Source of the DNA: Tubulanus polymorphus
Taxonomy: Eukaryota; Nemertea; Palaeonemertea; Tubulaniformes; Tubulanidae
DNA: 64,000 bases
Assembly: GCF_964204645.1 (NCBI RefSeq)
Contig: NC_134035.1
Coordinates: 11,575,951 to 11,639,950 of the forward strand
Reading direction: 5' to 3'
Of the stretch, positions 32,420 through 62,294 are shown piece by piece. The position numbers and the translations under genes are program-made. The first letter of the stretch is position 1. Every line of letters begins with the position of its first letter. The notes beneath the pieces were generated by a model, which was not told the DNA's origin, searched no databases, and saw only the letters and a program-made list of their open reading frames with translations.

Positions 32420-32518
32420 TCACACTTCGGCCAGATATTTCCTGGGACATCGAAACGAACGGCCTCTCGATCGAATCGGTATTATGCCTTGTTCTTCTGG
32501 CCCGGTTTGTATTACGAT
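32420..32518 (-). CDS. F-BAR/SH3 gene, last exon
   Basis: Encodes [20 protein letters not shown] and [12 protein letters not shown], stop at 32420-32422. It lines up in order with the end of STAC proteins (ENQI.V...G.I.V.SG....L....L..I), though only by pattern. Confidence 0.85.
   Translation of the reverse strand: MVIQTGPEEQGIIPIRSRGRSFRCPRKYLAEV

Positions 32519-62294: not shown

Follow-up and report, generated by a model that had tools for sequence, protein, structure and literature searches.

The window analysed in this study, a 64,000-nucleotide stretch of an invertebrate-like animal genome, very probably contains a single Stac-type gene, the predicted product of which is composed of a FES-like F-BAR region, a coiled-coil-like stretch, a linker and tandem SH3 domains, with no detectable C1 domain. 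Because the family-defining C1 was not found, the product falls short of a full "SH3 and cysteine-rich domain" protein and is better described as Stac-like. The fusion of a BAR-type region with a Stac protein is not new, because a "putative BAR domain" (not termed F-BAR) has been published for Dstac and "the other invertebrate Stac proteins" (PMC7573238, citing Hsu et al. 2018). A preliminary description of this DNA, according to which STAC proteins are not known with F-BAR, is therefore outdated on this point, and the unusual feature of the gene is its C1-less form.

Gene structure and coding signal

The gene is located on the minus strand (62294-32420) and its 18-exon structure holds. A script check of the sequence placed each exon uniquely, with AG acceptors in 18/18 and GT donors in 17/17 cases, and confirmed the proposal of the preliminary description that 18 minus-strand exons keep phase at every junction (17/17). 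The spliced model forms an open frame of 753 codons, encoding 753 residues, with no internal stops and with TGA at its end.

The modelled frame is open in all 18 exons and both other frames are closed in 12 of them. With same-length minus-strand stretches outside the exons as the reference, the product of the 18 open-frame chances is about 10^-16, a value which overstates the case, the true chance being larger because phase was a criterion in choosing the splice sites. When codon usage was trained on one half of the gene, the other half scored +0.07 to +0.08 bits per codon, compared with -0.045 to -0.101 in wrong frames and an intronic mean of -0.34 (maximum -0.14, n = 491). Third-position GC amounted to 0.51 in one half and 0.52 in the other, and the overall GC of the introns was 0.39. 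Taken together, exon frames, codon usage and third-position GC indicate that both halves look coding, and chance open frames were rejected as the source of the model on the basis of the open-frame product and codon usage.

The model has no start codon, as exon 1 (62187-62294) opens at an acceptor; its position as first exon is putative. A search of 62295-64000 and of 20 kb beyond for ATG exons of at least 5 codons, with a phase 1 end and a donor score of at least 7 of 9, yielded three candidates for the first coding exon, none of them convincing. A candidate small exon near 38955, after exon 12, was rejected on inspection by eye: it has a stop inside, would break the frame if spliced, and could be an alternative 3' end at most.

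Intron 12 contains a long (TA)n tract (about 36120-36385), and a similar tract is found approximately 3 kb past the right end of the window. By eye, look-alike stretches recur in introns (53680-53930, 42680-42880, 33260-33540 and others), some of them with a GGCCGGGTC core, and inverted-looking motifs (GCCATCATCAGGC and its reverse complement), possibly small DNA transposons, are present in introns at 42200-41700 and about 58960-58840. The window also carries a nuclear receptor gene on the plus strand (16672-20302), with a zf-C4 DNA-binding exon (16672-17013, Pfam E 3e-31) and pieces of a ligand-binding domain (18596-19162 and 20003-20302); from its appearance by eye, we take the zinc finger to resemble the PNR/NR2E3 type.

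Tandem SH3 domains of the STAC type

The C-terminal half of the product (379 residues) ends with two SH3 domains. The first part of SH3-1 is encoded by exon 15 (33670-33755) and its middle, with DPDWWR, by exon 16 (33117-33168), while exon 17 (32743-32880) encodes the end of SH3-1 and the start of SH3-2, and exon 18 (32420-32518) the end of SH3-2 and the stop codon. Pfam returned one SH3 above the cut-off in this half (SH3_1, 41.2 bits). Among solved structures, the best match over both SH3s was the tandem SH3 of STAC3 (6uy7, E 6.7e-24, 87.9 bits), spanning residues 264-378 of the half, followed by other STAC3 chains, STAC1, GRB2 and STAC2 (best 60 of 425 matches). In blastp, the spliced protein and STAC3 share 40% identity over 115 residues (94 bits), with 51% in the first SH3 and 30% in the second, and where the STAC3 chain 6uy9 carries Ser, the structure-search alignment places a retained Trp in this gene (DPDWWRG). 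These comparisons establish a tandem SH3 module of the STAC type at the C-terminus of the predicted product, as found in the STAC family. Of the STAC-like SH3 module in the preliminary description, the STAC type thus stood, and what had been counted as one SH3 turned out to be two in tandem.

Taken alone, SH3-1 scored higher with full-length GRB2 (72.7 bits) than with STAC3 (67.5 bits), the former value being presumably a sum over two SH3s; single-SH3 chains of GRB2 reached about 47-48 bits. SH3-2 alone was weak, with four of its five matches to STAC3 and a best E of 0.23. Judged from these alignments, the STAC type resides in the SH3 pair and not in single domains. The opposite search, with STAC3 against the genome, was not informative, since the genome was read unspliced: exon by exon, this locus scored 19.6 and 17.0 bits, below many single-exon SH3s. 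The best place elsewhere reached 38.4 bits, compared with the 94 bits of the spliced protein.

Linker and U-domain-like motif

The C-terminal half is opened by exon 10 (42203-42385), followed by exon 11 (41624-41699), which, or an equal-phase exon, is required for the frame between exons 10 and 12. The linker of the predicted product, to which exon 12 (41097-41309), exon 13 (35458-35580) and exon 14 (34486-34655) contribute, is basic and serine-rich. In stac2, a 22-residue part of the C1-SH3 linker, the U-domain, is reported to be sufficient to suppress calcium-dependent inactivation of CaV1, with KVD, PVY and ETL as its critical triplets (PMC6156082); which STAC regions are responsible is described as controversial (PMC8258685). 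Exon 12 encodes EIDPVYSLL, which is identical to KVDPVYETL of stac2 at 5/9 positions, with D-P-V-Y contiguous, and is situated at the matching place in the linker. When the whole protein was shuffled 20000 times, 1057 of the shuffles also reached five matches to the U-domain at some position, and the argument therefore rests on position and contiguity over count. On this basis, the motif of exon 12 suggests a resemblance to the U-domain, which bears out the earlier observation that DPVYSLLK precedes the SH3 in STAC order.

F-BAR-like N-terminal half

The N-terminal half is encoded by exons 1-9. Exon 1 contributes to the N-terminal F-BAR region, and exon 2 (60408-60516), exon 3 (58243-58315, an FCH piece), exon 4 (57134-57286), exon 5 (56383-56553), exon 6 (54997-55077) and exon 7 (54585-54749) are F-BAR-like, while exon 8 (54195-54346) and exon 9 (52146-52257), the latter closing the half, appear coiled-coil-like by eye. 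In Pfam, FCH matched this half with E 9.7e-6 and 26.3 bits, i.e. 1.5 bits under the curated cut-off of 27.8; a scan of 10 single-exon stretches was too weak to be useful. The search of solved structures (E up to 10) gave seven matches, namely two FES F-BAR chains at the top (E 3.2e-4, residues 21-331, 311 residues, extending into exon 8; the best FES stretch taken alone had an i-Evalue of 0.006) and five chains of unrelated molecules. These values suggest, by a weak match, that the N-terminal half is F-BAR-like and nearest to FES, in agreement with the F-BAR signatures reported in the preliminary description. A Pfam scan of both halves detected no kinase or SH2 match.

At E up to 1, a genome-wide FCH search listed nine places, five of them over the cut-off and none in the window; the F-BAR of this gene therefore appears divergent and apart from those nine loci. 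With the N-terminal half itself as the query and the same E limit, nine places were again obtained, each of them inside the window, and with the C-terminal half the matches beyond the window were to the first SH3 only, so no second copy of either half was seen in these searches.

Proteins of the NOSTRIN, CIP4/FBP17, PACSIN and FCHSD families also carry SH3 after an F-BAR, and the gene could be read as an ordinary member of one of these rather than as a Stac; the SH3 of NOSTRIN is indeed among the matches, with 37.2 bits for the C-terminal half and 39.2 bits for SH3-1 alone. Such an assignment is highly improbable, given the STAC tandem arrangement of the two SH3s (87.9 bits with STAC3), the U-domain-like motif in the right place, and the fact that none of those families is among the seven structure matches of the F-BAR half. 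The closest proteins were STAC3 (best 60 of 425 SH3 matches) and FES, and we retain the Stac-type assignment.

One gene or two

The two halves are separated by a 9.8-kb intron (52145-42386), and read-through beyond exon 9 is stopped after 16 codons, so a transcript end at exon 9 is possible. Within intron 8, moreover, a possible alternative first exon (52333-52428, minus strand, coordinates counted by hand) was found by eye; it has an ATG and a GTAAGT donor in phase 0, is in frame with exon 10, and is serine-rich with TCG-like repeats. These three features (the distance, the stop and the possible first exon) would fit two adjoining genes. The F-BAR gene would then end with exon 9 or shortly beyond it, and the start of the Stac-like gene would be either close to exon 10 or at 52428. 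Such a split is, however, quite unlikely. The exon 9-exon 10 junction falls between codons on both sides, the two genes would interleave because exon 9 is located downstream of the possible first exon, and in Drosophila 13 BAR-containing transcripts are described for Dstac as a single gene with alternative splicing (PMC7573238). It is thus most likely that both halves belong to one gene, in agreement with the preliminary description, and we infer that they share one mRNA.

The exon at 52428-52333, which may have arisen by chance, may mark an internal promoter and an F-BAR-less Stac isoform. According to PMC7573238, only three of the 13 BAR-containing Dstac transcripts carry the CRD-SH3 linker targeted by RNAi, and by analogy a product with BAR and SH3 joined may represent a minority; RNAi against this linker left T-tubules without obvious defect (PMC7573238).

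Search for a C1 domain

In stac proteins the U-domain-bearing linker comes after C1 (PMC6156082), and DPVY should therefore be preceded by a C1. The window was scanned with four C1-like regular expressions, which matched at six places, none C1-like by eye: five minus-strand places with the loosest pattern, two of them (44115 and 40245) within the limits of the gene, and a plus-strand place at 2957. None of the CxxC motifs listed in contiguous minus-strand frames from 31 to 63 kb fits C1 by eye. C1 probes reached a window maximum of 7.2 bits, below the mean best of shuffles (7.8 and 8.0, n = 20). With a control SH3 probe, two true SH3 exon pieces ranked first with 10.4 and 9.9 bits, against a shuffle maximum of 9.3, so that the probe test is only moderately sensitive.

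A search of the 268-Mb genome for C1 returned 48 places at E up to 1 (21 over the cut-off), with none in the window; sub-cut-off noise occurred in 4/14 prokaryote controls of this search. With a profile seeded on the C1 domains of STAC3 and PKC, the best place in the window (188-268, plus strand) scored 13.5 bits, against a shuffle mean of 9.7 and maximum of 16.5. After the addition of 13 C1 exon pieces from the same genome, the best place (34791-34862, plus strand) scored 9.4 bits, against a shuffle mean of 9.5 and maximum of 14.6 (n = 20). On the gene's own strand the C1 profile peaked at 5.2 bits among 953 fragments, and in the 20 kb upstream at 6.9 bits. In a leave-one-out test, 12/13 own-genome pieces scored above 14.6 bits, a sensitivity that is optimistic because the left-out pieces had been picked by a similar profile.

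The cysteine-rich C1 domain of the STAC family was therefore not detected in the window, which contains no N and hence no sequence gap. Its absence from this gene had gone unremarked in the preliminary description. Scores within the shuffle range, the lack of a gap and of any listed C1 place in the window together suggest that C1 is absent, unless its Cys motifs are themselves split or its sequence is highly degenerate. A C1 exon missed for either of these reasons would be in keeping with the many C1 matches in the genome that cover just profile positions 1-32 or 33-52, as if split by introns. It is nonetheless unlikely, in view of the recovery of 12/13 left-out pieces by the piece-including profile, the peak of 5.2 bits on the gene's strand and the N-free window. 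Among the open-licence papers listed in literature searches, no title or opening of an abstract mentioned a C1-less Stac.

Predicted function and comparison with known systems

The tandem SH3s of STAC dock on the II-III loop (PMC8258685), and by analogy with the STAC literature the tandem SH3 unit of this protein would dock on the II-III loop of an L-type calcium channel, with the U-domain-like motif setting calcium-dependent inactivation. The F-BAR part would keep the adaptor on the curved plasma membrane and might take over some of the anchoring done by C1 in vertebrate STACs; STAC3 is reported to hold on to CaV1.1 via its C1 (PMC5253670). A tentative scenario, to which we give somewhat less than even credence, is that the lineage lost the Stac C1 and anchors to the membrane and channel via F-BAR, as a mirror image of vertebrate STACs, and that an internal promoter in intron 8 may give an F-BAR-less isoform, suggesting a route by which the vertebrate form came from an F-BAR-C1-SH3 ancestor. 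A natural Stac with tandem SH3 and a U-domain-like motif and without C1 would help to tell which parts the channel work needs, and would also shed light on the role of the BAR domain in invertebrate Stacs, which the Dstac authors describe as unknown (PMC7573238).

Drosophila Dstac and other invertebrate Stacs resemble this gene in that one gene encodes both a BAR-type region and, downstream of it, the STAC SH3 region, but a cysteine-rich domain is described for Dstac (PMC7573238, compared by its description) and none was detected here. Vertebrate STAC1, STAC2 and STAC3 likewise have tandem SH3, and the linker motif of this gene may correspond to the U-domain; they have C1 (PMC6156082) and, according to PMC7573238, no BAR, whereas this gene is F-BAR-like and C1 was not found. 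Among solved structures, the N-terminal half matches the F-BAR of the FES/FPS tyrosine kinase best, but the Pfam scan of the present gene gave no match to kinase or SH2. NOSTRIN, CIP4/FBP17 and PACSIN share the order of F-BAR and SH3, but the SH3 pair of this gene is of the STAC type, and the match to the NOSTRIN SH3 is far weaker than that to STAC3 (37.2 vs 87.9 bits).
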